Shown piece by piece: positions 40,407 to 57,183 of a stretch of 64,000 nucleotides of DNA. The notes beneath the pieces were generated by a model. That model had not been told where the DNA came from and did no database searches. It saw only the letters and a list, made by a program, of their open reading frames with translations. The position numbers were made by a program, and so were the translations under genes. Source of the DNA: Oscillospiraceae bacterium (lineage in GTDB: Bacteria > Bacillota > Clostridia > Oscillospirales > Ruminococcaceae); NCBI GenBank assembly GCA_009783695.1, contig WRCY01000007.1:1-64000 (forward strand), in the 5' to 3' direction. The first letter of the stretch is position 1; each line of letters begins with the position of its first letter.

Positions 40407-42980
40407 ATGAAACTAAAGAGAATCACAGCTATACTTACAGCGCTTACGCTTATACTTATTACAATACCGACAGCGGCGGCGGAAGATTTTATAGCCGTGA
40501 CAAGCATTACGGGCGTTTCCACCAACGCAACGGCCGGTACCCAGCTTATGCTTGACAATGCCACTGTACAGCCGGTGAACGCCACTAACCAGGCTATAGT
40601 CTGGACAGTCGCCGACCAAGGGTCGACAGGCGCTTCTATTTCCGGTGCGGCGTTTAATGCGTCTGGCTCGGGAACAGCGATAATAACCGCGACAATCGCG
40701 AGCGGCTCCGGCGAGGGCGTGAATTACACCCAGGACTTCACCATATCCGTTAATATGCCTTTCATCGGAGTGACGGATATAACGGGAATCCCTGCAAATC
40801 AGACAGCGGGAACATTTTTGCTTGAGGGTGTCATCTCCCCCGCGAACGCCACCAGCACAGGCATCGTGTGGAGCCTTGTCAACGCGGGGACGACAGGCGC
40901 GTCTGTTTCGGGAAACTCGCTCACAACGACCAACACCGGAACAGTTCTCATTCGCGCTACAATAGAAAACGGATTGACAAGCGCAACTCATTTCGTTAAA
41001 GATTTTTCAATTAATATCGGTACACAAACCATTACAAGCGTTTCCGTTCAAATCCCCGCGCCCGAAACCTTCGGGCTGCGCCCGACAACAGCGACCCTGC
41101 CCACCAACTCAAACTTCACCGTAAATTCGGTTACGTGGCGGGTGGGAACGACGAACTTTACGGGAGCTTCGTTCCTCGGGAACACCCGCTATACAGTCGA
41201 TATAACCATAGCCGCAAATTCCGGCTTCACATTTGCGGACGGCAGCTCTTTTATAGGCAGAATCAATGCCACCGCCCCCACTAACTTAGTGCGTAACACC
41301 AACGGCACGATTACTATGTCGCTTGAGTTTCCCTCAACCAGAGCCACCAGCGTCCTGCCGACAGCCCCACAGAACTTCAAAGCCGAGCCCGGCAACAACC
41401 AGGTGAGGCTTACCTGGACTGCCCCCCAGAACACCGGCGGCAGCAATATCGTGAGATACCAGCTTTCATACGGGCTTACCACCGGTTACACGCGGCAATG
41501 GGATAATATCCCAAACTCCAGCGGAACGACTGTCGCATATACCGTGACCGGTCTTGAAAACGACAAGGAATATACGTTTGAGCTGCGGGCGGTGAACCAG
41601 GCCTACGGAGGCGGCGTGGCAACCTCGGCGATTAGGTCGATGCCTGTAGGTACCGCAACAGCTCCCCAGAACTTCCGCGTTTCACCCGGTAACAATCACG
41701 TATTGATTTCATGGACACCTCCGTCATTCACGGGCGGAACAATCACAGGTTATGAGTATTCGTACGCGCCCTCGGGCAGCTACACCGAAAGCTGGGACGA
41801 GGTTCCCCGCACGGGCTCGGGCGTACCGCTCAACTATGTTGTGGAGGATGTCACCAACGGCGTCGAATACACTTTCCAGGTCAGAGCGGTGAACTCCAAC
41901 GGAGAGGGCACAGCCTCGGCTAAGATTAACGGCATGCCTGCGGTAAATATAATCTCGGCACCGAGAAGCTTCTCGGCGACAGCCGGAAACGAGCAGGTCG
42001 TGCTCTCATGGAACACACCGCAAAGCCTTGGCGGCAACACGATTACAAAATATCAGTACTCACAAATCACAACCTCGGGAAACCCGACATGGCGCGATGT
42101 TCCCGATTCAAACGCGAATACTAATTCATTTACGATTACGGGGCTCACCAACGGCACAACTTACTTCTTTGAAGTTCGCGCGGTAGCCGGCTCAGTCTTA
42201 GGCTCTACTTCGGGCGTAAGAGTAGCGGCACCCGCCGCCGCCATCTCGAACAGTACCACCTCTGTTGACAACAGGGCGGGCGATATTCAGACCGCGGCAA
42301 ACAACAACACAGGGCAAACCATAACGGTTACCATGGCTTCCGGCTCAAACTCAATTTCCAAAGCGGTTCTCGATTCAATCAGAGGTAAAAACGTAATACT
42401 TTCACTTGATTACGGCGCCCTGGGCAGAATCACGATTAACGGCACGGGAGTTAATTCAACCAACGGCGCGTCAACCCTTAACATGAATCTTCAGCGCACC
42501 TCCGGAACAGCCACGATGATTGCCGAATACGCGATTCCGAAAACAGAGATTGACGCAAGGAACCCCCTGCCCGTTCATCAGCTTAAAATAGGTTCCGGCT
42601 CTTCCGTTGCTATTAACGGCACGGTTACCGTTAACGTCGGCGACGCGAATTCCGGCAGAAACGCAATCCTGTGCAGATACAACGCAACCTCAAAGCAATT
42701 CGAGGTTATAAATTCAAGCGTAATAGCCTCAAACGGCACTGCCGCGATTGAATTTACGGGAACCGGCGACTATCTGATTATCGTTCAGCGCGACGGCGAT
42801 GTGAACGGCAATAACGAAATCGGCACGGACGACGCTCTTGAAATCCTCAGAGCCGTTGCAGGAATCATAAAGCTTGACCCTGTTCAGCTGCACGTAGCAA
42901 GCACAAGGCGCGACAGCAAGGTTGAAACAGGCGACGCAATGGCCATACTGCGGCGCGTCGCGGGGCTTACCGTATCCTAA
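40407..42980 (+). CDS. Secreted protein: Ig-like repeats, three FN3 domains, C-terminal type I dockerin
   Basis: Signal peptide; three APQNFxxxPGNNxVxLxWxxP FN3 units; dockerin DVNGNNEIGTDDALEILRAVAG...ETGDAMAILRRVAGL. Confidence 0.85.
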   Translation: MKLKRITAILTALTLILITIPTAAAEDFIAVTSITGVSTNATAGTQLMLDNATVQPVNATNQAIVWTVADQGSTGASISGAAFNASGSGTAIITATIASGSGEGVNYTQDFTISVNMPFIGVTDITGIPANQTAGTFLLEGVISPANATSTGIVWSLVNAGTTGASVSGNSLTTTNTGTVLIRATIENGLTSATHFVKDFSINIGTQTITSVSVQIPAPETFGLRPTTATLPTNSNFTVNSVTWRVGTTNFTGASFLGNTRYTVDITIAANSGFTFADGSSFIGRINATAPTNLVRNTNGTITMSLEFPSTRATSVLPTAPQNFKAEPGNNQVRLTWTAPQNTGGSNIVRYQLSYGLTTGYTRQWDNIPNSSGTTVAYTVTGLENDKEYTFELRAVNQAYGGGVATSAIRSMPVGTATAPQNFRVSPGNNHVLISWTPPSFTGGTITGYEYSYAPSGSYTESWDEVPRTGSGVPLNYVVEDVTNGVEYTFQVRAVNSNGEGTASAKINGMPAVNIISAPRSFSATAGNEQVVLSWNTPQSLGGNTITKYQYSQITTSGNPTWRDVPDSNANTNSFTITGLTNGTTYFFEVRAVAGSVLGSTSGVRVAAPAAAISNSTTSVDNRAGDIQTAANNNTGQTITVTMASGSNSISKAVLDSIRGKNVILSLDYGALGRITINGTGVNSTNGASTLNMNLQRTSGTATMIAEYAIPKTEIDARNPLPVHQLKIGSGSSVAINGTVTVNVGDANSGRNAILCRYNATSKQFEVINSSVIASNGTAAIEFTGTGDYLIIVQRDGDVNGNNEIGTDDALEILRAVAGIIKLDPVQLHVASTRRDSKVETGDAMAILRRVAGLTVS

Positions 42981-43043: not shown

Positions 43044-44096
43044 TTATACGAGCCGCTTGTCAAGCGCGGTTATGTCCTGCGCGTAGCTGAGCGCGGTATC
43101 GCGCGTAACCCAGCCGCCATAATAAAGCTCCGATATGGCGTCGTCCATTGTCTGCATACCGAGTTTTTTGCTCGTTTGCAAAACCGACGGAATCTGAAAG
43201 GTTTTTCCCTCGCGGATATAACTCTTGATTGCGCCGTTGGACAGCATTACCTCAATGGCAGCCACTCTGCCCTTGCCGTCCTTTTTCGGCAGCAGCTGCT
43301 GTGAAACCACGCACTCCAGCACATCCGCGAGCTGCGTTCTGATTTGCTGCTGTTGATACGGCGGGAAGATGTCAATGATTCTGTCAACTGTATTGGCGGC
43401 GCCGACTGTGTGCAGTGTTGAGAAAACTAAGTGCCCTGTTTCGGCAGCGGTAACGGCTGTGGAAATAGTTTCCAGGTCACGCATCTCCCCCACCAGTATT
43501 ACGTCGGGGTCCTGCCGCAGCGAGGCGCGCAACGCCGACGCAAAGTTCCTCGAGTCAGTGCCCATGTCCCGCTGATTAACTATGCTTTGTTTGTGCGAGT
43601 GCAGGTACTCAACAGGGTCTTCAAGCGTGATTACATGATACTTGTATGTATTGTTAATAATGTTGATGAGCGAGGCGAGCGTTGTGGATTTACCGCTGCC
43701 CGTAGCTCCCGTAACAAGCACCAGACCTCTGCGTTTGTGCACCATTTCTATTACGCTTGCGGGAATCCCGAGCTCCTCCGGGCCGGGGATATGCAGGTTA
43801 AGTATACGCGCGACAAGCGCCATGCTTCCCCGCTGATAAAACACATTCACGCGGTAACGCCCGACTCGGGGAATGGAATGAGCGAAGTCCACCTCGCCGT
43901 CCTTGCGCAGAATCTCTTTCTGATTATCGCTCATTATTTCAAAAGCGACTCTTTCTATATCCGCGCCGCTCATGCGCTCGTCGCCGATAGGCGTAATGTG
44001 CCCGTCAACACGGCAGGAGGGCGGGCGCGCAATGGTTAAATGCAGGTCTGACGCATGCAGGGCCGCCGCTTGTTGAATCAAGGTTTCAAAAGTCAT
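43044..44096 (-). CDS. pilT: Type IV pilus retraction ATPase PilT
   Basis: GATGSGKSTTLASLIN, ALRASLRQDPDVILVGEMRDLETISTAVTAAETGHLVFSTLHT. Confidence 0.93.
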   Translation of the reverse strand: MTFETLIQQAAALHASDLHLTIARPPSCRVDGHITPIGDERMSGADIERVAFEIMSDNQKEILRKDGEVDFAHSIPRVGRYRVNVFYQRGSMALVARILNLHIPGPEELGIPASVIEMVHKRRGLVLVTGATGSGKSTTLASLINIINNTYKYHVITLEDPVEYLHSHKQSIVNQRDMGTDSRNFASALRASLRQDPDVILVGEMRDLETISTAVTAAETGHLVFSTLHTVGAANTVDRIIDIFPPYQQQQIRTQLADVLECVVSQQLLPKKDGKGRVAAIEVMLSNGAIKSYIREGKTFQIPSVLQTSKKLGMQTMDDAISELYYGGWVTRDTALSYAQDITALDKRLV

Positions 44097-45829
44097 TATA
44101 ACGTTCCGCCTCCTATATTTGATGTATTCTCAAAAGATATTTTAAGCATCTCGGAAATGGTTGTAGTCCCCTCAAGCACGTGCTTTATCGCGCTCATTCG
44201 CAACGTGTTCATGCCCTCGGATATGCCGATATCGCGGATTTCCTCAGTAGTCGCCATCTTCGAGATTGCGGCCTTTAGCTTCGGCGAAATCGCCATAATT
44301 TCATATACGCCGATTCTTCCGTAATATCCCGAATCCCCGCACAAGTGGCAGCCCGCCGTGTCGTAAATCTCCAATTCCTGACTAATCGGTATGTTTAAAG
44401 AGATTTTTTCATGGTCTTTAGCGGGACGCAGTACACGGCAAGCCGTGCAAAGCCGCCGCACAAGCCGCTGCGCCATAATTCCCACAAGCGCGTCTGCAAG
44501 CAGAAACGATTCTACGCCCATGTCGATAAGGCGCGTAATGGTCGCCGCCGCGCTGTTAGTGTGCAATGTACTGACAACCAAGTGACCCGTGTTCGATGCT
44601 TGTACAGCAATCCCCGCCGTTTCGGAGTCGCGGATTTCACCGACCATGATAATATCGGGGTCCTGCCGCAGAATCGAGCGCAGCGCGGAAGCAAAAGTCA
44701 TGTTGGCTTTGGGGTTAACCTGCACCTGGTTTACGCCCGCGATGTTTGCTTCAACAGGGTCTTCAACGGTGATTATATTTACCTGCTCGGTATTGAGCTC
44801 GGAAATTGCGGTATACAGCGTGGTGGATTTTCCGCTGCCTGTAGGACCTGTAACTAAAATGATTCCGTGCGGGTTCGAGAGAATTTGATTGAACCGCTCA
44901 AGCTCATAGTCCTTCATACCGAGCTCAGACTTTTTCCGCGCGAACGACGTCCTCAGCGCAAGACGCATAACTACCTTTTCACCGTATGTAGACGGAAGAA
45001 TCGAAACACGGATGTCATACTCTTGCTTGTCAACAATGATGGACATACGCCCGTCCTGCGGCTTTCTTTTCTCGGAAATGTCCATACCCGAAAGGATTTT
45101 TATGCGGGTTGTAATCGCCGACAAAAGCGCGATGTCATACATCATCTTCTCGACTAAAACGCCGTCTATTCTGAAACGCACGCGGATTTGCTTTTCGAGC
45201 GGGTCAAAGTGAATATCACTTGTGCGAAGACGCACCGCCTGCTCAATTATCGAACGCACAAGCTGCACTATCGGCGCGTTTGAAACGTCTGTATCGCCCT
45301 GCGCTTCCATTGCGGCCAATTGCGCGAGCTGAAGCTCGCGCTCCTTTGAATACTGCTCCGCCGCAGACATAGCCTCGCTCGTCCCGAAGAAGCGGTCAAG
45401 AACGGAGTTGATTGCGCCGTAAGTGGCAATCCGCGGCTCAATGGCGTAGTTTGTGATAATGGCTATGTCGTCCTGCGCAACCATGTCGAGCGGGTCTGCC
45501 ATTGCAAGAATCAAGACGTTCGGGTTCGCCGGGTCAAACTCGATGGGCAGCACGCTGTGCTTACGGAGCACGGAGCCGTTTACAAGCCCGATAATTTCGG
45601 GCGGAATTTTAATCCCGTGAAGGTCGATAATGGGGATATTAAGCTGCAAATGTAGCGCCGTAGCGATGTCGTCGCCTGTGATGAAACCACATTCAATCAG
45701 GCAGTCGCCGAGCCTCATTCCTTTGTTTTTCTTCTGGAATTCAAAAGCCGCCGATAACTGCGCCTCCGTTATAACATCATGATGTAGCAGAATGTCGCCG
45801 AGCCTGAGTTTCTGACCGCCGCTTCTCAT
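44096..45829 (-). CDS. pilB: Type IV pilus assembly ATPase PilB/GspE
   Basis: GTGPTGSGKSTTLYTAI-type Walker A, SILRQDPDIIMVGEIRDSETAGIAVQASNTGHLVVSTLHTN, CxxC pair. Confidence 0.93.
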   Translation of the reverse strand: MRSGGQKLRLGDILLHHDVITEAQLSAAFEFQKKNKGMRLGDCLIECGFITGDDIATALHLQLNIPIIDLHGIKIPPEIIGLVNGSVLRKHSVLPIEFDPANPNVLILAMADPLDMVAQDDIAIITNYAIEPRIATYGAINSVLDRFFGTSEAMSAAEQYSKERELQLAQLAAMEAQGDTDVSNAPIVQLVRSIIEQAVRLRTSDIHFDPLEKQIRVRFRIDGVLVEKMMYDIALLSAITTRIKILSGMDISEKRKPQDGRMSIIVDKQEYDIRVSILPSTYGEKVVMRLALRTSFARKKSELGMKDYELERFNQILSNPHGIILVTGPTGSGKSTTLYTAISELNTEQVNIITVEDPVEANIAGVNQVQVNPKANMTFASALRSILRQDPDIIMVGEIRDSETAGIAVQASNTGHLVVSTLHTNSAAATITRLIDMGVESFLLADALVGIMAQRLVRRLCTACRVLRPAKDHEKISLNIPISQELEIYDTAGCHLCGDSGYYGRIGVYEIMAISPKLKAAISKMATTEEIRDIGISEGMNTLRMSAIKHVLEGTTTISEMLKISFENTSNIGGGTL

Positions 45830-45855: not shown

Positions 45856-48192
45856 TTAGTGTAATGGAAATAATCCGATTTTACGGACAGTGATATTTTT
45901 ATTCTCACCGTTTAAAACGTTTCCGGTTATCGTTACTTGGTCTGCGCCGTTATCAAGGGCGTTTAATATATCGCCGGGTAAATCAAAGTAATAAACATCG
46001 GTACTGCCGACCTCTTGTTTTATATCTTCTATTTTTATTTCCTTTAGTATACCATCCAATTCATAAACAAATTCGATATTAAATAATTCTGTATCTCCTA
46101 TGAGTTTGAAATAAACCCTTAGGTTATTGCCGTTTAAAATCCCGCTCTCATCGGTATCCGACGGCAGTAATATATATTTCATAATAATCCCACCCGAGGA
46201 ATCGGTAAAATTAAATTCCGGCACGAGTACCCACTGCGCGTATAACACAATATTCTCTGTAATACCCGAAATCGTAGAACCCGGCAAATAACGTATTATG
46301 CTGCCGCCCGACATTTCACGAAGCCAGCCATCGAATACATAACCCTCAGGAGCAGTGAAAGAATTCATGCCGACAATGTGATTCTCACCACTGCTTACAT
46401 CGACAGAAAATGCTGTGCCGAGCCCGCCGTTCGGGTCATATTCAATATCGTGTGTCCAATACGCGATAACAGTTACGTTCTCTGTGAACACTGTATCTGT
46501 CGTTACCTGCGCTCCGCCATCAGCTTCTGTTCTGAACCAACCTGCGAATTTTGCGCCGCTTCTCTCCGGTATCGGTAAAGAAGAAAGCTTCCCGTCAACT
46601 TCTGTTAAGGCACTAAGCGGGTCAACCGAGCCTCCGTTCGGGTTAAATGTAACTATAAAAAGATTCTGCAACCACTGCGCGTAAATAGTAGTATCCGCGG
46701 TAAATACTGTGCTCGTTGTTACTTCAATGCCGTATTCTTGCGCCGTAAACCACCCGTTAAATACGAAACCGCTTCTCGTCGGCGTAGGGAGTATTACTAA
46801 TGTGCCGTCAGGTTCTGCTGCTGCGCTTGTTGGATTAACCTCCCCACCGTTCGGATTAAAAGTTATTGTATAATTCAGCACTTCCTCCCACTGTGCATAT
46901 AAGATAGTATTCCAATACACATAATCTATGGTTTCACCCGCTGCATAATGTGTTCCGCTTCCGTCTGCTTCGGTATTCCAACCATTAAAAGTATAGTTTG
47001 CTCTGGTAAATGTATTTGTTTTGATATTATAATGATTACCTCGAGCCACGAAAACATCTGACATTAAACCTATGCCGCCGTTCCGGTCAAAACTAACAGT
47101 ACAAATGTCTATTGTTGTCCCGTTACCCAAGGTTTCAATGTCCAAAGTTGCTTCTATATTTCCAGCATCTAAAATAAATCTCAATGGTACAGGGTAACTT
47201 AAACTAATTCCGGTTTGAATACTGCCGTTTACTGCGATATTATTATTCCAGCTTAAATTTGAAAGAGTGACCCTGTCGCCCGGTATGTGCTGAACTGTCA
47301 TATTAGATTGACTGTTAAATATAACCCCTTCTGAAAGGTCAATATTAAACGCCCAAGCATTAATGGCAGTGCTTCCGGTGTTTCTAATTGTTATTGTAAA
47401 AGATGATGTTAAAATTCCGGTAGCGATATTTACACTCGCATTTAACATAAGAAATGACACACTTATATTCTGATTAGTACTTACATTAAAAAGTTCTCCC
47501 GGAGTAAATCCCAATTGAAATGTAGAAGTAATTGAACTATTTGCGGGAATACTACCGGAATTTGACAATACAAGTTCTTGATTTATACTATCCATTGATA
47601 GATTTGCACCACCCCAAAAACTTTCAATTGTTGTTTCATTAGGAATAATAGCCTTAACCGCCCAATCGTTTATAGCTGTATTTCCTGTATTAAAAATTCT
47701 CGTTTCATACTGTACAAATAATCTGCCGCCGCTCCCCCAAGCACCCGTAATTCTAAATTCTACTTCCAAATCCGGATGACTTATTCCAAATCCACCCGAT
47801 GAAAGCATATTAACTTGATTTATGTTGGTATAAAATGTTTCCCCTGTTTCCGCATGTCTTATTTCGCAACGATAAAATCCGTTAACGTATATGCTTTCAG
47901 TAAAATTCCGCGATGTAGCTCCATTAACATTAGTATATACACCGGTTTGTGTATCACTGCGCTGCCATCTAAATATAAAATCACTATAATTAACAGCAAC
48001 ACCTGAAGCAGCGGTTATTTCAGCGGTTAATCTTAGCGTTAAGCCGGTAGTTCCGTTATCTGTTATAATTGCTGAAAAAGTTTCGTAATCGCCCGGAACC
48101 GAAAAGGTATCAAAGCTAAACGATAATACAAGAATAAGCGAAACAAATGCAGCGACTGCGCGGCGCAGACATATTTTATTCTTCATCGTCAT
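45856..48192 (-). CDS. Secreted protein with CBM2-like and InlB/Listeria-Bacteroides repeat domains inside the pilus locus
   Basis: CBM2-like WGSGGRLFVQYETRIFNTGNTAINDWAVKAIIPN...SIPANSSITSTFQLGF; repeats ITFNPNGGEV...GFVFNGWFTAQ...TTIYAQW; signal peptide. Confidence 0.75.
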   Translation of the reverse strand: MTMKNKICLRRAVAAFVSLILVLSFSFDTFSVPGDYETFSAIITDNGTTGLTLRLTAEITAASGVAVNYSDFIFRWQRSDTQTGVYTNVNGATSRNFTESIYVNGFYRCEIRHAETGETFYTNINQVNMLSSGGFGISHPDLEVEFRITGAWGSGGRLFVQYETRIFNTGNTAINDWAVKAIIPNETTIESFWGGANLSMDSINQELVLSNSGSIPANSSITSTFQLGFTPGELFNVSTNQNISVSFLMLNASVNIATGILTSSFTITIRNTGSTAINAWAFNIDLSEGVIFNSQSNMTVQHIPGDRVTLSNLSWNNNIAVNGSIQTGISLSYPVPLRFILDAGNIEATLDIETLGNGTTIDICTVSFDRNGGIGLMSDVFVARGNHYNIKTNTFTRANYTFNGWNTEADGSGTHYAAGETIDYVYWNTILYAQWEEVLNYTITFNPNGGEVNPTSAAAEPDGTLVILPTPTRSGFVFNGWFTAQEYGIEVTTSTVFTADTTIYAQWLQNLFIVTFNPNGGSVDPLSALTEVDGKLSSLPIPERSGAKFAGWFRTEADGGAQVTTDTVFTENVTVIAYWTHDIEYDPNGGLGTAFSVDVSSGENHIVGMNSFTAPEGYVFDGWLREMSGGSIIRYLPGSTISGITENIVLYAQWVLVPEFNFTDSSGGIIMKYILLPSDTDESGILNGNNLRVYFKLIGDTELFNIEFVYELDGILKEIKIEDIKQEVGSTDVYYFDLPGDILNALDNGADQVTITGNVLNGENKNITVRKIGLFPLH

Positions 48193-48706
48193 TATCCTCC
48201 TCTTCCGGTTCTGCCGGGCGTTCCGGAACGCCGAGAGTGTCCGGCGAATTACGCAGATTAATCAATTGCTCGGCAGTATAAACACGGCTGTCGCCCGGGT
48301 TTGTCGGCGAAAACGACATGGTAATCCCAAGCAGATTATCGCCCGTTTCTCTAACCGCTGTAAAAGCGGTTACATTCCTTGAAACAATATTCCCGTTCAA
48401 AAAGAGCCCGCCGTCATCTAAAGCAAATGTATTTACTGTTCCGTCGCCGTCGTTTATTGTCAGCGTGCCTGTATCGGCATTAAACGCAATACTCCCGTTA
48501 CAGCCCATAACAAACTCGCTCAGCATATTCATTACAATCTGATACTCTATTTGCAGATTAACCATATCCGAGGTTCTTCTGTATGAGCGCGAGCTCATGG
48601 TAATAAAGCCCACCAGCGCAGCGCACAGCACCCCGAAAATCGCGAAGCTGACCAGCAGTTCTATCAGCGAGAAGCCTTTATTGCTTTTTAGATTCTTAAC
48701 ATTCAT
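48176..48706 (-). CDS. Type IV prepilin-like protein
   Basis: NKGFSLIELLVSFAIFGVLCAALVGFI class III signal peptide. Confidence 0.85.
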   Translation of the reverse strand: MNVKNLKSNKGFSLIELLVSFAIFGVLCAALVGFITMSSRSYRRTSDMVNLQIEYQIVMNMLSEFVMGCNGSIAFNADTGTLTINDGDGTVNTFALDDGGLFLNGNIVSRNVTAFTAVRETGDNLLGITMSFSPTNPGDSRVYTAEQLINLRNSPDTLGVPERPAEPEEEDNDDEE

Positions 48707-48725: not shown

Positions 48726-48780
48726 AATTGTCAATTGTACATTGTTAATTGTTAATTGTCAATTGTCAATTGTCAATTGT
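48726..48780. repeat. Heptamer tandem repeat (CAATTGT/TAATTGT)n
   Basis: TAATTGTCAATTGTACATTGTTAATTGTTAATTGTCAATTGTCAATTGTCAATTG. Confidence 0.85.
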
Positions 48781-48783
48781 CCG

Positions 48784-49338
48784 TCACCCCGCTCTGACAC
48801 GTCTGTTTCCAGTTTCGGGAGTTATGTCAATCAAATAGGTGAGCGTGCCGTTTGAGAATCTGATTTCTTCAAGACTTGGCTCGCCGTCTAACGGTGCGCC
48901 CGTCTCGTCAGCTAAAATCAACGCGCCTCTGCGGGTAAAGCTGATTCTGAGCGGCAGGCCGCTTTCTTCCCCGTCAATAACAGGCGTAACTGTGATACCG
49001 GATTTCCCCATAATCTGCTCGTCAACATGAAATCCGTTTTCTTCGCAATCTTCACGCGTACAGATTTCATTTAGGCAACGTTCATGGTATCTGCCCACGA
49101 TATTTCCGCCGCTCACAATAAACTCAACAAAGACGGGCTCCGCGCGGTACATGGAATTAATCCGGCAGCGCGCTATCATGCTGTTTACAGAATTAGTGCA
49201 TTTTCGCAGGTTGTTCGCCGCCGACGAGGAAGACGAAATCCCAAGCACGCCAATCGAAACGCCGATAAGCGCCAGCACCACAAGAATCTCAATAAGCGTG
49301 AAGCCTTTATTCTTTTTTATGTTTTTTGCAGCTTTCAT
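48784..49338 (-). CDS. Type IV prepilin-like (GspH/FimT-like) protein
   Basis: NKGFTLIEILVVLALIGVSIGVLGISSSSSAANNLRKCTNSVNSMI; start chosen at MKAAKNIKKNKGF. Confidence 0.8.
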   Translation of the reverse strand: MKAAKNIKKNKGFTLIEILVVLALIGVSIGVLGISSSSSAANNLRKCTNSVNSMIARCRINSMYRAEPVFVEFIVSGGNIVGRYHERCLNEICTREDCEENGFHVDEQIMGKSGITVTPVIDGEESGLPLRISFTRRGALILADETGAPLDGEPSLEEIRFSNGTLTYLIDITPETGNRRVRAG

Positions 49339-49343
49339 AAAAC

Positions 49344-51383
49344 TCACCACCTGCGCCAGTTTTCGTATGACACCAGCGCGGACATATCCCAAGAAAGCGA
49401 CTTTTCAAGGGCGTGGTCGTCTTCTGTGAAAAAGGATTGATTTAAAAACTTGCCAAACATATCGCCCGCTTCATTCTTTGCGCGGATTGACGGGATAATA
49501 TCTCTGGGAGCCGCCGTTACACTGCTGTATAACTCTATGGTACCGTTACTAATAATCAATCCCTCGAAAGCTCGGTCTGCTATAACGTTTCCCGTGCTTA
49601 GTATTAAGTTAACGTCAGGACTAAGACTGCTTATATTTGTAGTGCTATTCCCCTCACATTTTATGATAACGGCGCGAGTATTGCCATCTTCAATAAAATC
49701 GTATCTGCCGTTTTCAAGCTTGTTAACTTCATTTGTATCTACAATATAAGAATAAGGCGTGATTTCATTGCCGACCTGTATACTCGTTGAAAGCGAGCGG
49801 GTTATATTTTCATACATACGCGAAAGCCGCAGTGAAACGCCGGGCATAACAGGTGAAATAAGTATATCATCAATGCCCAAGTCATAATAATATCCGCTTG
49901 TCTGCATGTTTGCTGCGGGGTCATCAGGGAGGAGGTATGGGTTAAGATATTGGCTTACATAATCTTTTATTTCTTCGGAATAATCTGTAAAATATTTTTG
50001 GAAATAAGTGTTCGCACCATTTGCACCATCAATGCCGTCGAACTTCATAAAGACAAACAAGAGCGTCTGCCCTGTTGCGGCAACAGGTCTGTACACGAGG
50101 TGATAATCGTCTTCAAAACCTGTTGTATCGGGCGTTTCTGCGGTATCGAAAATAAACGGATTCGATTGTAGGCCTATTTCACTCGCAGGAACTAAATAAG
50201 CAAGCTGGTCGCTCTTGACAGAAACGGACTGTCCCATTAAAATATCGTTGTAACCGCTTCCCGTATCAATAAAGCTGTGCCCCGCGAGGAAAAGCGTATT
50301 AAGTCCCGACATATCAAGGGTTGAGCCCGGGCCGTTCACAATAATTGAGCTGCTTTCATCAGCGCTCTCAAGCGAACGCCCGAAGCCGTAGTACCGCCCC
50401 TTAAGTATTGCTCTTGATTCCTCGCCGTTCAGCACCAAGTCGTCGGCGATATATGTATCGCCGAGCAGCTGTACGGAGCTTTCGTAAGCTACATCATCGT
50501 CTTTTTCAACAAAGATTCTTCTCGCCCATAAAGAAGAATAGCTGTCTGTTGTAAATTTCCCGTTAACATTTATATTGCCGCTGCTGATGAGCGTTGTGTT
50601 ATTTGTTGAAAATTCAAAGTGCTCGCCTGTGTTTACTGTTATATTTCCCGCAAAGGCAATGCCGTCATTTATGCCAGCGTCAGCCGCGGGAATGTTTAAT
50701 GTTTCTGATGCAATCAACGCGATATCATTAATCGGATAATCGGCGCGCACATAGGAAAAATCCGGTACGACAACGACAATATCGCTCGCTACTCTTGAAA
50801 CAAAACCGTCTGCGGTGCTGTGGCTGATTTCGATGCTTTTCAGTACAAAAACGACTTCATCACCAACTGCCTTACGGTCAACTTCACCCAGTATCTGTCC
50901 GTCAAGCGGCTGCGTTTCCAGCGCGGAAGTGATATTTATGTTTTCCGTTACGCTAATAAAATCGCCCACTTTAACAAAGTCGCCATCTGCTAAAATGTTA
51001 TAAAACAAACCATCGCTGACTTGCCTGAATAAATCAGATGTTTTGAAATAATGCTCAAATCCTCTGCGGAACACATCTTCCAAGTTAATCGGCTCATCTT
51101 TTTCTTCATCATACATATCGTGCTTGTATTCAACAAGCATATCGGTATAAGCCTTTGCGATACATTCCGTCACGATAGCCTGTATGCCCGCGCGCACTTC
51201 GTCGAGTGCGGTCTCCGCGCTGTAAAAAGCACGCTCGCCTTTGGCTTCGGCGGATTTAATCTGATAGCCGGTGTACGCCATGAACATGAGAATAGTTCCG
51301 AGTATGGAAATGAACGCCATAGCGATTAACACCATGATTACGGAAGAGCCTTTATTATTTAATAATGCTTTAATCCCGCTCAT
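49344..51383 (-). CDS. Pilus-associated protein with PilX-like N-terminus
   Basis: NNKGSSVIMVLIAMAFISILGTILMFMAYTGYQIKSAEAKGERAFYSAETALDEVRAGI. Confidence 0.7.
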   Translation of the reverse strand: MSGIKALLNNKGSSVIMVLIAMAFISILGTILMFMAYTGYQIKSAEAKGERAFYSAETALDEVRAGIQAIVTECIAKAYTDMLVEYKHDMYDEEKDEPINLEDVFRRGFEHYFKTSDLFRQVSDGLFYNILADGDFVKVGDFISVTENINITSALETQPLDGQILGEVDRKAVGDEVVFVLKSIEISHSTADGFVSRVASDIVVVVPDFSYVRADYPINDIALIASETLNIPAADAGINDGIAFAGNITVNTGEHFEFSTNNTTLISSGNINVNGKFTTDSYSSLWARRIFVEKDDDVAYESSVQLLGDTYIADDLVLNGEESRAILKGRYYGFGRSLESADESSSIIVNGPGSTLDMSGLNTLFLAGHSFIDTGSGYNDILMGQSVSVKSDQLAYLVPASEIGLQSNPFIFDTAETPDTTGFEDDYHLVYRPVAATGQTLLFVFMKFDGIDGANGANTYFQKYFTDYSEEIKDYVSQYLNPYLLPDDPAANMQTSGYYYDLGIDDILISPVMPGVSLRLSRMYENITRSLSTSIQVGNEITPYSYIVDTNEVNKLENGRYDFIEDGNTRAVIIKCEGNSTTNISSLSPDVNLILSTGNVIADRAFEGLIISNGTIELYSSVTAAPRDIIPSIRAKNEAGDMFGKFLNQSFFTEDDHALEKSLSWDMSALVSYENWRRW

Positions 51384-51453: not shown

Positions 51454-52593
51454 TTAATCAAACTGTGCCGCCTGCGTTCTCAGTAAATGCCTGCCTCCCG
51501 CGGCAAGCTCGCCTTCCCTGTAAACATGAATTGTCACCGCGTACATGCGGTTCTGCTGCGAGCGCGAAACAAGCTCGCCGGATGTTTCTTTATTACCCAC
51601 CCAATACATTTCCGAAAACTTATAATCAATGACAGCAGGGTTAAAAGCCCGTATCTCATAAGGGCGCTTAAAATTAGCAAAAACCCGGGTTTTAACAGTG
51701 TCCGTATCCGTACCCTCAGATTCAAGCAGGGTTATATTTGCGTTATTGTAATGCTCCTGCATATCTTGATTTACAAGAAATACCGACAGATTCATTCCGG
51801 GTTTGTTTTCAATTTCAATATTGTCGCTTACTCCATACCTTGGCTGATAGCAAACGTAGATATTCGCGCTGTCGGCTGTTTTTCCTCTATAAAACTCCCG
51901 CTGCCATTCAAAATCATAGCCGCCGAATTTATAATAATAAGTAACAGTTATACTTACGTTATCGCCATTTTCATGAGCTGTCACTGTAATTACCCGATTA
52001 TAAAGCCCGCGCATTTTTTCCCAGCAATTACACTCGATTTCAAGCTCGTCACATGTACAAAATTCATTGTTGCTGATTATTTCACGGTCTGCCAAATACC
52101 TTGCCGCTAATATATCGGGATTTTCATCATCTCTGTCGGACTGCGCGAACACCCCGTCCATAGGGGAGTAGTCAACGATTTGCATATTATTTATATCATT
52201 AAAGTCGCCCGCGGACAGCATTACGCGTAAATCAAACCGCGACATCCCCGCGGAATAACCGAGCAAATCGAAAGCGTAAATTCCGTTATCATTATCAAGC
52301 GTTTGAATCTCAAAGCCGTTCGACGTAAACGGGTTTGCATCTGCTCTAAGCTGATTAATAACATCTTCCGCGCCTGACGCCTTGATAGTTTCAATAACAT
52401 TGCGGGAGGAGAGCGTTGCGTCGCCGAGATAATGGCTTCTCCTTGAGGTTGACTGCGCGGTAAGAAAAGCATGAAGCAGCGGACTGCAAATCAATGCAAA
52501 TATAGCCACGCTCACCATCAGCTCGACAAGCGTGAAGCCGCTGTTCTTTTTAAGATTTTTAACTCTGTTCTTCATAATCATCACTTGGCTCAA
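51454..52593 (-). CDS. Type IV prepilin-like protein (PilW/PulJ-like)
   Basis: NSGFTLVELMVSVAIFALICSPLLHAFLTAQSTSRRSHYLGDATLSSRNVIETIK. Confidence 0.8.
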   Translation of the reverse strand: MSQVMIMKNRVKNLKKNSGFTLVELMVSVAIFALICSPLLHAFLTAQSTSRRSHYLGDATLSSRNVIETIKASGAEDVINQLRADANPFTSNGFEIQTLDNDNGIYAFDLLGYSAGMSRFDLRVMLSAGDFNDINNMQIVDYSPMDGVFAQSDRDDENPDILAARYLADREIISNNEFCTCDELEIECNCWEKMRGLYNRVITVTAHENGDNVSITVTYYYKFGGYDFEWQREFYRGKTADSANIYVCYQPRYGVSDNIEIENKPGMNLSVFLVNQDMQEHYNNANITLLESEGTDTDTVKTRVFANFKRPYEIRAFNPAVIDYKFSEMYWVGNKETSGELVSRSQQNRMYAVTIHVYREGELAAGGRHLLRTQAAQFD

Positions 52594-53311
52594 ACTGAGG
52601 CGGGGCGTTTGGTTGAGGTACAGAACGTATTACGCCGAAAGGATTCGGCAGACCGAGCCCCATATCGGGAGTCTGCGCCGCCGTATATCCGGCATCGTGC
52701 GAGCCGAGGAAGCTTTTGTTAACCACCATGTTGCCGTAAAGCAGCCCCGTGGCAGAGTTAAAGCTGAAGCTGATTGAATGAAGCGAGGTTTTCGGGCTTT
52801 CCTCGTATATATAGTTCACCAAATCTTTAAGCTGCCCGTATGTCAGATTGCAACTCACGTTAATCCCTGTGCGGTAGGCGCTCTGCGCAGTGAAAGAAAG
52901 ACCGCCGGCGGCGTTTTCCGCCAGCCCCTGCACCGTCATTATTTCGACAGGCTGAATAAACGTAATCCCGCCCGTATTTATTCCTATTTGCTCCCCGAGC
53001 TCCACCACGTACATAATCAGGTCCGCCGCATGGACGTCAGCCGGGAATTCGGCTTGCGCCGCTAAAATAAACTCTTCGGAATCTTTGATTGCCTGCCTGT
53101 ATCCGCCGACCTCCCGCTCAATTGCTTTCAACCGCGAGTATTCAAACTCGGCGTCTTCAATATCCTCGAGCAGATATTCATTTTCCTCGGTAAATGAAAG
53201 ATACACCAAAAAATAACAAAGCACAAAAATGACAATCCCGAATAGAATCAGCAGCATTTTTATATCACGTTTAGATATATTCATATTTTCACCATGTCCT
53301 TCCAGCACCAA
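52559..53311 (-). CDS. PilO-like pilus assembly protein
   Basis: Single N-terminal TM (LLILFGIVIFVLCYFLVYLSF) then coiled coil and alpha/beta domain; position after the PilM/N-like gene. Confidence 0.65.
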   Translation of the reverse strand: MVLEGHGENMNISKRDIKMLLILFGIVIFVLCYFLVYLSFTEENEYLLEDIEDAEFEYSRLKAIEREVGGYRQAIKDSEEFILAAQAEFPADVHAADLIMYVVELGEQIGINTGGITFIQPVEIMTVQGLAENAAGGLSFTAQSAYRTGINVSCNLTYGQLKDLVNYIYEESPKTSLHSISFSFNSATGLLYGNMVVNKSFLGSHDAGYTAAQTPDMGLGLPNPFGVIRSVPQPNAPPQFEPSDDYEEQS

Positions 53312-53510
53312 ACGAATTTAAAACAACGTTTTCCCCGACAAAACAGATTTTGCTTCAAGCTTTCACCATGTCCTTCCCGCACCAAACGAATTTAAAACAG
53401 CGTTTTCCCCGACAAGACAGATTTTGCTTCAAGCTTTCACCATGTCCTTCCCGCACCAAACGAGTTTAAAACAGCGTTTTCCCTGATAAAACAGATTTTG
53501 TTTCAAGCTT
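53289..53510 (-). repeat. Three tandem 74 bp copies of the two-box leader unit
   Basis: TCACCATGTCCTTC recurs at 53289, 53363 and 53437 (exact 74 bp period); each has sense TTGAAR-N15-cRGGGAAAACG. Confidence 0.9.
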
Positions 53511-55153
53511 TAGTCCTCCTCGCCCTCATCAAATATGCTGTCAGCCCTTTCCGTTTGTCTGTCCGACACCGCCGGCTTGTCGTAAAGGCAATTAACCGTA
53601 AACGAGTAGAATGTAAATCCCGCTTCGTCCTGCCCCTGGCTGAGCGCCGAGATTTCAAGCGCTTCTATGCTTTCAAACGTATGGAACTGGTTTATCACCA
53701 CCGCCGCCGTTTCGAGCGAGGGAACGCGCAGGTTCATAAGCACTCCCTCATTAGTGCAGACCGCCGACAGGAACAGTATATCCGAGGGCATCTTCTCCTC
53801 AAGCTCGTCAAAAAAGTCCACGAGCCCGCTGTTGTTATTCTGTATAGCTTCGTTAAGCGCGGTAAAACCTCTTTCGGCGTTCTGATACACCATATAGCTT
53901 CTGTGTTCAGATTCAACGTATCTGACAGATTCAATGTCTTTTCTTATATCTTCCAGCTCTTCGCGCAGCCTGTTGCTCTCAAAAACCGCAGACGGCGACA
54001 TTGCCGCGCCCGCAATCACGCAGGTTGCGAAAATCACGACTGCGCCGACAATGCCGTGCTCTGAGCTCTTTTTTCTTTCTTTGGTCGCCTTGTATTTATC
54101 AGGAATCAAATCAACGGGAGCGAACGTGCTTCCGTATGCAGTTATGTACTGCGAAATGAGCGCCGGGTTCCCCTGCAGCGCGGGATTCGGCGAGGCTGCG
54201 AGGAATTTGTCAAGCAGGAAAACGTCTGCTTCATTGAGTGCTGTTGAAACAGCCTCGCGAAGCCCTGCGAGATTCGCGCAGGTTCCTGCAAGAATAATAC
54301 TGTCGAGCGGCGCGCTCCACCTGCTGGAATTAAAGAAGTCCATGCTGCGCGTAATGCCGCCCACAATGCGGTTATATGCGCGGTTAATATCACTTTCGCC
54401 GAGGATTGCCTTTGTGAGAAAAGTATTTAATGGAACTGAACATTCCTTGAGTGCTTTTTCGTAGTTATTTTCGTTTTCTTCACCGTCCTTAGCGGACAGG
54501 TATGCATCTATAAACTCGTCGCCGCCCCACGGAAGCATGCGCTGCAGAATCAGCCTGTCGCCTTTTGCAATCATAATACAGGTATGGTTTCCCGTCACCG
54601 CGACGCACATCGTGACTTTACCTGTTCCGAGCGCCTTTAAAACCTGGAACTGGCTGTTTCCGCCATAATCAATGCCCTGTATGTCGAGGTTCATTTTCTC
54701 GGCAAGCTTAATGTACCCGTCAAGAAGCTGCAGCGGCGCCGCAAGCGCCATCGTGTGGGTGCCCGCGTCCTTGCCCTCGCTCACAGTCTTTAGCATGCCG
54801 TAGGAAACAAGATACCTGCTTATATCAACAGGAAAATAATCGCTCGTATTCGCTTCTATAACTTGTTTTACGCGGTTTTCTTTTAAAGGGGGGAGCATGA
54901 CCTCGCGCGTCGCCACCTTGCCGGAAACAAGCGTGAAGATAACGTTTTTCACGCCGCTCATGCCGTTTTCATGCAGCTTTGGAGTCAGCGTGCTGCCGAG
55001 CAGCCCGGCGTCGGAAATCATTCCGTCGGCAGCCGTGCCGACAGGAGTTTCAATCATGAACGCTTTCTTCAGTGTGACGTTGTTTTTCTTTTTCTCGGTC
55101 AGGCAGACTTTAACAAAGCTGTCCCCAACTTCGATATTCAAAAATTTTGCCAT
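53510..55153 (-). CDS. PilM (actin-like)/PilN-like fusion pilus assembly protein
   Basis: MAKFLNIEVGDSFVKVCLTE...; C-terminal TM and PilN-like region after SEHGIVGAVVIFATCVIAGAAM. Confidence 0.8.
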   Translation of the reverse strand: MAKFLNIEVGDSFVKVCLTEKKKNNVTLKKAFMIETPVGTAADGMISDAGLLGSTLTPKLHENGMSGVKNVIFTLVSGKVATREVMLPPLKENRVKQVIEANTSDYFPVDISRYLVSYGMLKTVSEGKDAGTHTMALAAPLQLLDGYIKLAEKMNLDIQGIDYGGNSQFQVLKALGTGKVTMCVAVTGNHTCIMIAKGDRLILQRMLPWGGDEFIDAYLSAKDGEENENNYEKALKECSVPLNTFLTKAILGESDINRAYNRIVGGITRSMDFFNSSRWSAPLDSIILAGTCANLAGLREAVSTALNEADVFLLDKFLAASPNPALQGNPALISQYITAYGSTFAPVDLIPDKYKATKERKKSSEHGIVGAVVIFATCVIAGAAMSPSAVFESNRLREELEDIRKDIESVRYVESEHRSYMVYQNAERGFTALNEAIQNNNSGLVDFFDELEEKMPSDILFLSAVCTNEGVLMNLRVPSLETAAVVINQFHTFESIEALEISALSQGQDEAGFTFYSFTVNCLYDKPAVSDRQTERADSIFDEGEED

Positions 55154-55233: not shown

Positions 55234-55761
55234 TTATGATTTATGGTCGATATCCCCGATATTTCTGACCATTCTTTCAAAATCAGTACGCGACGAACCT
55301 GTGGTGGGCATACCGTTCGTTTCAATACTTATTTCACCACTGCCGTCGGAATTTAATGAATATACCATTGCAATTGATGTGGCTGTTTTGACTAAGTTTG
55401 AACGGGCGGTTTCATTGCTGCCGATTATACCTACAATAGAATTTGTGATTGCTGTTAAATCATCACTTGTTGCAGTGCTGATAACGGCAAGAGCACCTGT
55501 AGCTGTAGTCCATGTAACAGTGATATGGGCGCCGCTACCGGACGGAATAGCATCTTCAAGGAAAGGGTCGAGGGTGGTATTCTGGATTGCGTTGGCTATG
55601 CTGTTAATTGTCTGCACGTCTGAGGACTGGCGCGAACGTTCGACATATCTGATGTACTGCGGCGCGAGGATACCTACAAGAACTGCCATGATTGCGATAA
55701 CAATCAGCAGTTCCACGAGCGAGAAGCCCTTTTTGCTTTTGAGTTGTTGAAGTTTTTTCAT
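55234..55761 (-). CDS. pilA: Major type IV pilin-like protein
   Basis: MKKLQQLKSKKGFSLVELLIVIAIMAVLVGILAPQYIRYVERSRQ. Confidence 0.9.
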   Translation of the reverse strand: MKKLQQLKSKKGFSLVELLIVIAIMAVLVGILAPQYIRYVERSRQSSDVQTINSIANAIQNTTLDPFLEDAIPSGSGAHITVTWTTATGALAVISTATSDDLTAITNSIVGIIGSNETARSNLVKTATSIAMVYSLNSDGSGEISIETNGMPTTGSSRTDFERMVRNIGDIDHKS

Positions 55762-55830: not shown

Positions 55831-57183
55831 CTATATGGCGTCAAGCGCGTCGTACATTGCGCTCATCGGGAGCAGAACCGAAATCACCAGCGTCCCCACT
55901 ATGCCCGCCATAACTATGATAATCGCCGGCTCCATCGCCGCCATGAGCGACTGAGTGACGTTCTTTACTTCCTCGTCGTAATAATCGGCAAGCTTGTTCA
56001 GCATACCCTCGATTCCGCCGGTGTTTTCGCCGATTTTAAGCATATGGTGGACAAGCGGCGGGAACATCGCAGAGCGCTGAATCGGCTCGGAAAGATTGTT
56101 GCCCATAGCAACCTCTTCCTTGGCGGCGAGCAGCGCGTTCTTGAAATGTATGTTGGTCATGGTCGACGCGGTAATGTCAATAGCCTCAATCAACGGGATT
56201 CCCGCCGCAATCAGCGTGGAGAGCGTACGCGCCATTCTCGCGCAGGCGGTTTTTATGACAAGATTACCAAACAGCGGCAGCCGAAGCACAAATCGTCCGA
56301 GGAACTGCGTTCCCACTCTGCTTTTCGCGATATTTACAACAAATATAATAAACAAAGCTAACACCGCCGCAACTATGTACCAGTATGAAAGCAGGAAGTT
56401 ACTTGCACTGAGGACCGCCACCGTTATTCCCGGAAGCCCCTGGTCCATGTCCGCGAACATATCCTCAAACGACGGGATTACAAATATCAGCAGCATAGCG
56501 ACCACCGCGACCGCCACAATCGCAAGCGAGGCGGGATAAATCGTTGCTTTTTTCATGTTCGCCTTGAGTGCGGCGTCCTTCTCGAACCGCTCTGCCATTC
56601 GGGTAAACGAGATTCCGAGGCTTCCCGAAGCTTCGCCAGCTTCCACCATTGTTACGAATATATCGGTAAATATATTGCGGTTTACCCGCATCGCGCCCGC
56701 CAGCGATTCGCCTTTTTCAACTTCCGTGCGCGTTTCCCATATAATACGGCTTAGGCACTTGTTTTCGGTCTGCTCGCCCAGCATTTCAAGCGTGGATAAA
56801 ATATTAACCCCCGCCGAGAGTATGCTTACAAACTGGCGGCAGAAAACTGCCATGTCGCGCGATTTCGGTTTTTTTTCAAAGAATTTAAGGTTTATGTCTT
56901 TCGATATGGCGAGAGAATCAACAAGCGATACCGGAATAAGCTCATTTTGCTTGAGCCATTCCGACGCTTCTTCCCGGCTCGCCGAATCAACGGTGCCCTT
57001 TTTCTCTTTTCCCTCTTTATCAACTGCCAAATAACTAAATATAGGCAAAACCGAATCCCTCCCCTCTACATATAATATAGTGAGCGCATTAATAAAACAA
57101 GACCCGTAACTGATTATTATTATAGCATGATTCATTTTTTTTGTCAATATATTGTTTAAAATGGGGTATTTTACATAATTCAT
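55831..57183 (-). CDS. pilC: Type IV pilus inner-membrane platform protein PilC/GspF
   Basis: FCRQFVSILSAGVNILSTLEMLGEQTENKCL...ARMARTLSTLIAAGIPLIEAIDITA; true start probably downstream at LPIFSYLAVDKEGKEKKG. Confidence 0.93.
   Translation of the reverse strand: MNYVKYPILNNILTKKMNHAIIIISYGSCFINALTILYVEGRDSVLPIFSYLAVDKEGKEKKGTVDSASREEASEWLKQNELIPVSLVDSLAISKDINLKFFEKKPKSRDMAVFCRQFVSILSAGVNILSTLEMLGEQTENKCLSRIIWETRTEVEKGESLAGAMRVNRNIFTDIFVTMVEAGEASGSLGISFTRMAERFEKDAALKANMKKATIYPASLAIVAVAVVAMLLIFVIPSFEDMFADMDQGLPGITVAVLSASNFLLSYWYIVAAVLALFIIFVVNIAKSRVGTQFLGRFVLRLPLFGNLVIKTACARMARTLSTLIAAGIPLIEAIDITASTMTNIHFKNALLAAKEEVAMGNNLSEPIQRSAMFPPLVHHMLKIGENTGGIEGMLNKLADYYDEEVKNVTQSLMAAMEPAIIIVMAGIVGTLVISVLLPMSAMYDALDAI

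Follow-up and report, generated by a model that had tools for sequence, protein, structure and literature searches.

In Gram-negative bacteria with type IVa pili, the non-pilin PilY1 is encoded together with the minor pilins; its conserved C-terminal part joins the minor-pilin complex and reaches the tip of the pilus, where its variable N-terminal domain is outermost (PMC13190605). Adhesion by type IV pili of Gram-positive bacteria is not well understood: large modular minor pilins are one suggested answer, and the late outer-membrane components are listed as missing from monoderm pili (PMC6916266). In ruminococci, type IV pili have been implicated in adhesion to cellulose (PMC3672088). Here, we analysed a window of 64,000 nucleotides from a draft Oscillospiraceae genome of 2.23 Mb, in which a secreted multi-domain protein of 778 amino acids, termed Adh in the following, is encoded in a pilus operon (45856-48192; reverse strand, as are the operon genes described below). 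We favour, with a probability of about 0.58, the reading that Adh is a PilY1-like adhesin of the pilus tip that lacks the PilY1 propeller, is docked to the minor pilins by its C-terminus and carries an exchangeable head.

The operon around Adh is a type IVa pilus operon. Its transcription order starts with the platform protein gene pilC (55831-57183), a major-type prepilin (55234-55761), pilM (53510-55153, with a putatively PilN-like C-terminal half), a gene assigned to the pilO position by its place and its homologs (52559-53311), a minor prepilin (51454-52593) and a PilX-like minor pilin with a long extension (49344-51383), which ends in LVSYENWRRW. These are followed by an H-type (GspH-like) minor prepilin (48784-49392), an I/J-type minor prepilin (48176-48706), Adh, the extension ATPase gene pilB (44096-45829, by homology) and the retraction ATPase gene pilT (43044-44096, by profile match and homology). 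The GspH-like reading frame overlaps pilX with its first codons and probably has its true start further downstream. Likewise, a sigma-70-like promoter with a 12/12 match (57147-57119) falls within the range of the pilC reading frame, the true start of which is probably near 57054, downstream of the promoter. Adh starts with an ATG directly preceded by the ribosome site AGAGGAGG, shares 17 nt with the I/J-type prepilin gene and stops 26 nt short of the ATG of pilB, the arrangement noted in a preliminary description of this DNA, which had seen a reading frame overlapping a prepilin stop directly before pilB.

Several further elements were observed in and beside the operon. Between the two minor-prepilin genes, a 7-bp unit (TTGACAA register) is repeated eight times in tandem (48726-48781), each unit resembling a -35 hexamer; the 20-bp pattern of three units has 134 overlapping matches in the genome at up to 2 mismatches, against 1 for the reversed control. 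A 74-bp tandem repeat (three copies, 94% matches) lies between pilM and the pilO-position gene (53287-53511). Beyond pilT, the opposite strand encodes a secreted protein with three FN3 domains (40407-42980), whose C-terminal sequence is dockerin-like (GDxNGN..EILRAVAGI) and has no dockerin match in Pfam. In the relative Pal332_bin19, a protein of 2,027 aa whose end is similar is encoded one gene past pilT.

Adh begins with a signal peptide (residues 1-33; 48094-48192) that has an n-region KNK..RR, a hydrophobic core and no lipobox cysteine, and this hydrophobic N-terminus fits a Sec signal peptide. An N-methylation (N_methyl) match and a class III prepilin motif are both absent from the protein, which is accordingly not a prepilin. 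The signal peptide is followed by an Ig-like domain (residues ~52-130; 47803-48039) with a conserved FYRC, weakly matched by the ig profile in the orthologs and all-beta in a low-confidence predicted model. Next come two CBM2 segments, CBM2-1 (47512-47766), which aligns to the CBM2 of EngD, and CBM2-2 (47194-47397), which aligns to that of ChiC. Four InlB/List_Bact repeats found with Pfam form the stalk (residues 363-655; 46228-47106), and a C-terminal domain (residues 656-778; 45859-46227) closes the protein with the motif TVRKIGLFPLH (45859-45891), the proposed docking strand.

The preliminary description had named two CBM2-like segments and about four InlB repeats, and the Pfam scan bears out both. 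CBM_2 (PF00553) matched two stretches (E 4e-12, 46.8 bits), each passing the curated cut-off of 24 bits singly, CBM2-2 with 38.8 and CBM2-1 with 24.3 bits; List_Bact_rpt/Flg_new matched four (E 3e-45, 152.7 bits). By sequence, the solved structures nearest to Adh are the CBM2 domains of ChiC and C. cellulovorans EngD and the repeats of internalin B. The CBM2 assignment gains weak support from a low-confidence single-sequence model of residues 138-355 (mean pLDDT 43), for which Foldseek returned the EngD CBM2 as best PDB match (E 2.6e-3, probability 1.00). A full-length model from a two-row alignment (mean pLDDT 33) was not used for fold claims. The signal peptide, the Ig-like domain and the C-terminal domain are additions to the earlier picture. 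Since the Adh sequence contains neither an LPxTG motif nor a second transmembrane segment, some partner must hold the protein.

Among named relatives, two Oscillospiraceae MAGs are closest by PilM, Emb289P3bin72 (78% identity) and Pal332_bin19 (80%); their isolate names presumably point to termite guts. Absence of the gene from homologous pilus loci, which the preliminary description had named as a refutation, was not observed: both MAGs have an ortholog of Adh in this slot, flanked by the last prepilin and pilB (L132, 822 aa; L254, 841 aa), and the overlapping reading frames at the end of the minor-pilin cluster are conserved with it. Identity to Adh (L132 / L254) is uneven along the protein: 45% / 52% in the signal peptide, 37% / 25% in the Ig-like domain, 19% / 11% in the CBM2 segment, 76% / 46% in InlB copy 3 and 53% / 39% in the C-terminal domain. 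Both orthologs lack a CBM_2 profile match and carry other sequence in place of the CBM2 segment. The GC3 is 26% in the CBM2 segment, 34% in the whole Adh gene, 43-63% in the other pilus genes and 45-47% in the ortholog genes. Retention thus extends to slot, leader, InlB stalk and tail, and the head is different, for which replacement is the simplest account. Full-length Adh compared with 391 genomes of the class gave InlB-repeat matches, with no ortholog among the matches listed. CBM2 matches elsewhere in the family (L041-L046) were considered as orthologs and discarded, as the stretches read showed pilus genes close to none of them.

Is a protein in this slot a common feature of related pili? 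We surveyed 80 loci taken from a PilM alignment, mostly from Lachnospiraceae, and the slot was readable in 68 of them. About 65 of these 68 hold a large secreted non-pilin; a clear N-terminal hydrophobic segment was found in 62 non-pilin slot reading frames and falls just below the threshold in 4 more. The 62 include L140, where the slot reading frame is an unrelated membrane protein. L164 and L174 have a phosphoglycerate mutase in this position and no slot protein. A second sample of 20 loci from Lachnospiraceae genera, retrieved with a slot protein as query, showed the order pilX, H-type, I/J-type, slot protein in each of the 18 judgeable loci, a locus with pilC as neighbour being outside the 18. 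The "new arrangement" of the preliminary description is therefore too strong a term, as PilY1 occupies the same position in Gram-negatives and a large secreted slot protein is common in Clostridia.

The PilB of the Adh operon shares 56-58% identity with PilB of Lachnospiraceae and ~42% with canonical Oscillospiraceae PilB, including that of a second locus in its own genome; by these similarities, the Adh-bearing pilus belongs to the Lachnospiraceae type. In the canonical Oscillospiraceae loci read, the slot is empty. The second locus of the genome is such a canonical one (contig C9; L049; L053-L056) and comprises pilC, pilM, a pilO-position gene, pilD and pilB, with neither PilX nor prepilins between them; the two pilus systems may share parts. 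Because its PilM is barely similar to that of the Adh operon (E 3e-4) and the slot protein is missing from loci of this kind, we set the canonical locus aside as a comparison.

The slot proteins themselves are diverse. Those of Lachnospiraceae carry DUF5057, SHIRT, or PA14 with a sub-threshold CBM35 match, and those of other Clostridia carry FN3 with a short CBM3 match, or DUF7305. Two of the latter, from Clostridia genomes of 4-5 Mb (L122:6955-9591 and L124:10889-13621), combine FN3 domains with a short CBM_3 match that barely exceeds the cut-off, and may thus be another instance of a slot protein that binds carbohydrate. In many Lachnospiraceae loci (L136-L211), we also observed that the minor prepilin nearest the slot reaches 600-1,140 aa, a modular pilin of very large size.

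What these proteins have in common is their end. Complete slot proteins end in a short, hydrophobic motif exemplified by LKERVLFNLY, FTRRGLFSLD, FLRRALFDLD and TERELFKLE, and Adh and its orthologs end in RKIGLFPLH, RKIGLFQLH and RRIGLFDLH. A loose form of the motif was found at the C-terminus of 30 of 33 slot proteins and a strict form in 27 of 33, each against 3 of 1,428 other reading frames of the same loci, a contrast that is descriptive because the expressions were composed after the sequences had been seen. For most of the 33, the match by which they were retrieved breaks off 68 or more residues short of the query end, so the motif was not selected for by the search. In a profile comparison, the C-termini of the orthologs matched the Lachnospiraceae ones with 86.5% probability (13 controls, ~1% or less), which fell to 1.3% upon removal of the last ten residues from both profiles. 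The common element is thus the tail of about ten residues, and common descent of the whole C-terminal domain with the Lachnospiraceae slot proteins is not shown by this match. Toward slot proteins of other Clostridia families, homology of the tail is unsupported (2% probability).

A common motif beneath differing heads suggests a common partner. PilX is the first candidate, because a conserved C-terminal motif is likewise present in PilX-like proteins (59 of 71). The two motifs do not always co-occur: L164 and L174 keep the PilX motif and have no slot protein, which leaves the link between PilX and the slot suggestive.

The suggested partner bears on an alternative that we consider unlikely, in which Adh, comparable to a tapirin, would be an adhesin that is secreted or loosely attached to the cell and, although co-expressed with the pilus, is never built into it. 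Tapirins are encoded near type IV pilus genes. They are discrete cellulose-binding adhesins encoded beside genes for plant-wall use (PMC7142884), and SLH-like sequence, which would bind the wall, occurs in some slot proteins of Clostridia (L127, L129). However, neither a wall-binding module nor an anchor was found in Adh, and the gene is embedded between the minor pilins and pilB rather than at the edge of the operon; together with the tail shared across different heads, this speaks against the alternative.

What might the head of Adh bind? We take the binding positions to be the three surface aromatics usual in CBM2, as known for CBM2a. Aligned with the EngD and ChiC domains, CBM2-1 retains two of the three binding tryptophans (W152, W193) and CBM2-2 one (W315). 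The two Adh stretches are the only CBM2 matches in the draft genome, and a search of it for GH9 found none. Cellulose is therefore not established as the ligand; cellulose, chitin or another glycan is possible. A cellulosome setting was considered as well and dismissed, with six weak dockerin matches (24-28 bits) and GH9 absent. Of the pilus-linked polysaccharide adhesin first proposed for this gene, the pilus-linked adhesin is still the best reading, while the absence of CBM2 from both orthologs rules out carbohydrate binding as the conserved function.

The same observations could be read in favour of Adh being mainly a factor of pilus assembly, whose tail primes or stabilises the minor-pilin complex and whose head is a fast-changing decoration or phage decoy with no role in sugar binding. 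A conserved tail under a variable head would fit this, as would the loss of two of three binding aromatics in CBM2-2 and of one in CBM2-1 in a genome with no other CBM2 and no GH9. We nevertheless regard it as less probable still than mere co-expression, since two binding tryptophans are retained in CBM2-1 and since the PA14 and sub-threshold CBM35, SHIRT and CBM3-like segments of other slot proteins are typical of adhesins. That the locus encodes a type II secretion-like pseudopilus with Adh as secreted cargo is very improbable: weak matches of the minor pilins to GspH, GspI and GspJ models would agree with it, but a PilT-like retraction ATPase and PilM are present, and the lineage is expected to lack an outer membrane, without which a Sec-exported protein needs no second export step.

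Returning to the PilY1-like tip adhesin, we propose the following course of events. Adh would be exported by Sec as a non-pilin, and its conserved C-terminal domain with the strand-like end would dock to the minor-pilin priming complex, most likely to the PilX-like pilin and by beta-strand complementation. Extension by PilB would then push the docked Adh outward, so that it rides on the tip of a retractable type IVa pilus. The N-terminal head would be exchangeable; here, two CBM2 segments stand ahead of the InlB-repeat stalk, and such a head would probably grip a polysaccharide (cellulose, chitin or another glycan), and retraction by PilT could then pull the cell to the gripped surface. In this scheme, the domains, the secretion signal, the conserved slot, the replaced head segment and the tail motif are observed, while the location at the tip, the docking partner, the strand complementation and the glycan binding are inferred.

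The general finding is the slot with its tail motif, not the CBM2 domains. We speculate, at somewhat less than even odds, that the Lachnospiraceae-type pili of Clostridia have an unrecognised class of tip adhesins that replaces PilY1, with fast-changing heads on a short C-terminal docking strand complementing a PilX-like pilin, and that Adh is a carbohydrate-binding version of this class. The heads within this proposed class would comprise CBM2, Ig-like, CBM3-like, PA14, SHIRT and DUF5057 domains, and the strand would end in LFxL[D/E] or similar. If the slot encodes tip adhesins, one operon position would predict the binding target of the pilus of each gut species, and the ten-residue tail would be a simple target for testing PilY1-like docking.

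How does Adh compare with the known systems? The cellulose-linked proteins of ruminococci (CbpC, GP25, Pil3) come from the same broad bacterial group, but they are pilins themselves; the precedent drawn from them in the preliminary description concerns true pilins (PMC3672088) and does not carry over to Adh, which is not a pilin. The modular monoderm pilins PilB and PilC of S. sanguinis likewise place adhesive domains on a type IV pilus (PMC6916266), as our reading would for Adh, yet there the domain is fused to a pilin, whereas Adh carries a signal peptide and lacks the class III prepilin motif. The tapirins of Caldicellulosiruptor are, like Adh, discrete secreted adhesins of Gram-positive plant-fibre bacteria (PMC7142884). 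Compared by description rather than by sequence, they differ in having a beta-helix binding domain and no CBM2, and no tapirin is among the PDB sequence matches of Adh. The DUF5057-type slot proteins of Lachnospiraceae share with Adh the slot after the pilX, H-type and I/J-type pilins and the C-terminal motif; Adh has no DUF5057 (PF16480), on which we found no literature, and the match is confined to the tail. The PilY1/PilC tip adhesins differ from Adh in three respects. Adh has no beta-propeller (no hmmscan match to PF05567 at E <= 0.1, nor in seven slot proteins at E <= 0.01), its host is expected to have one membrane, and the tail common to the slot proteins is a short motif instead of a large domain. 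At the same time, both are Sec-exported non-pilins encoded in a minor-pilin cluster, with a conserved C-terminal and a variable N-terminal part (PMC13190605). By this analogy, Adh may work like PilY1 while standing outside the PilY1 family.
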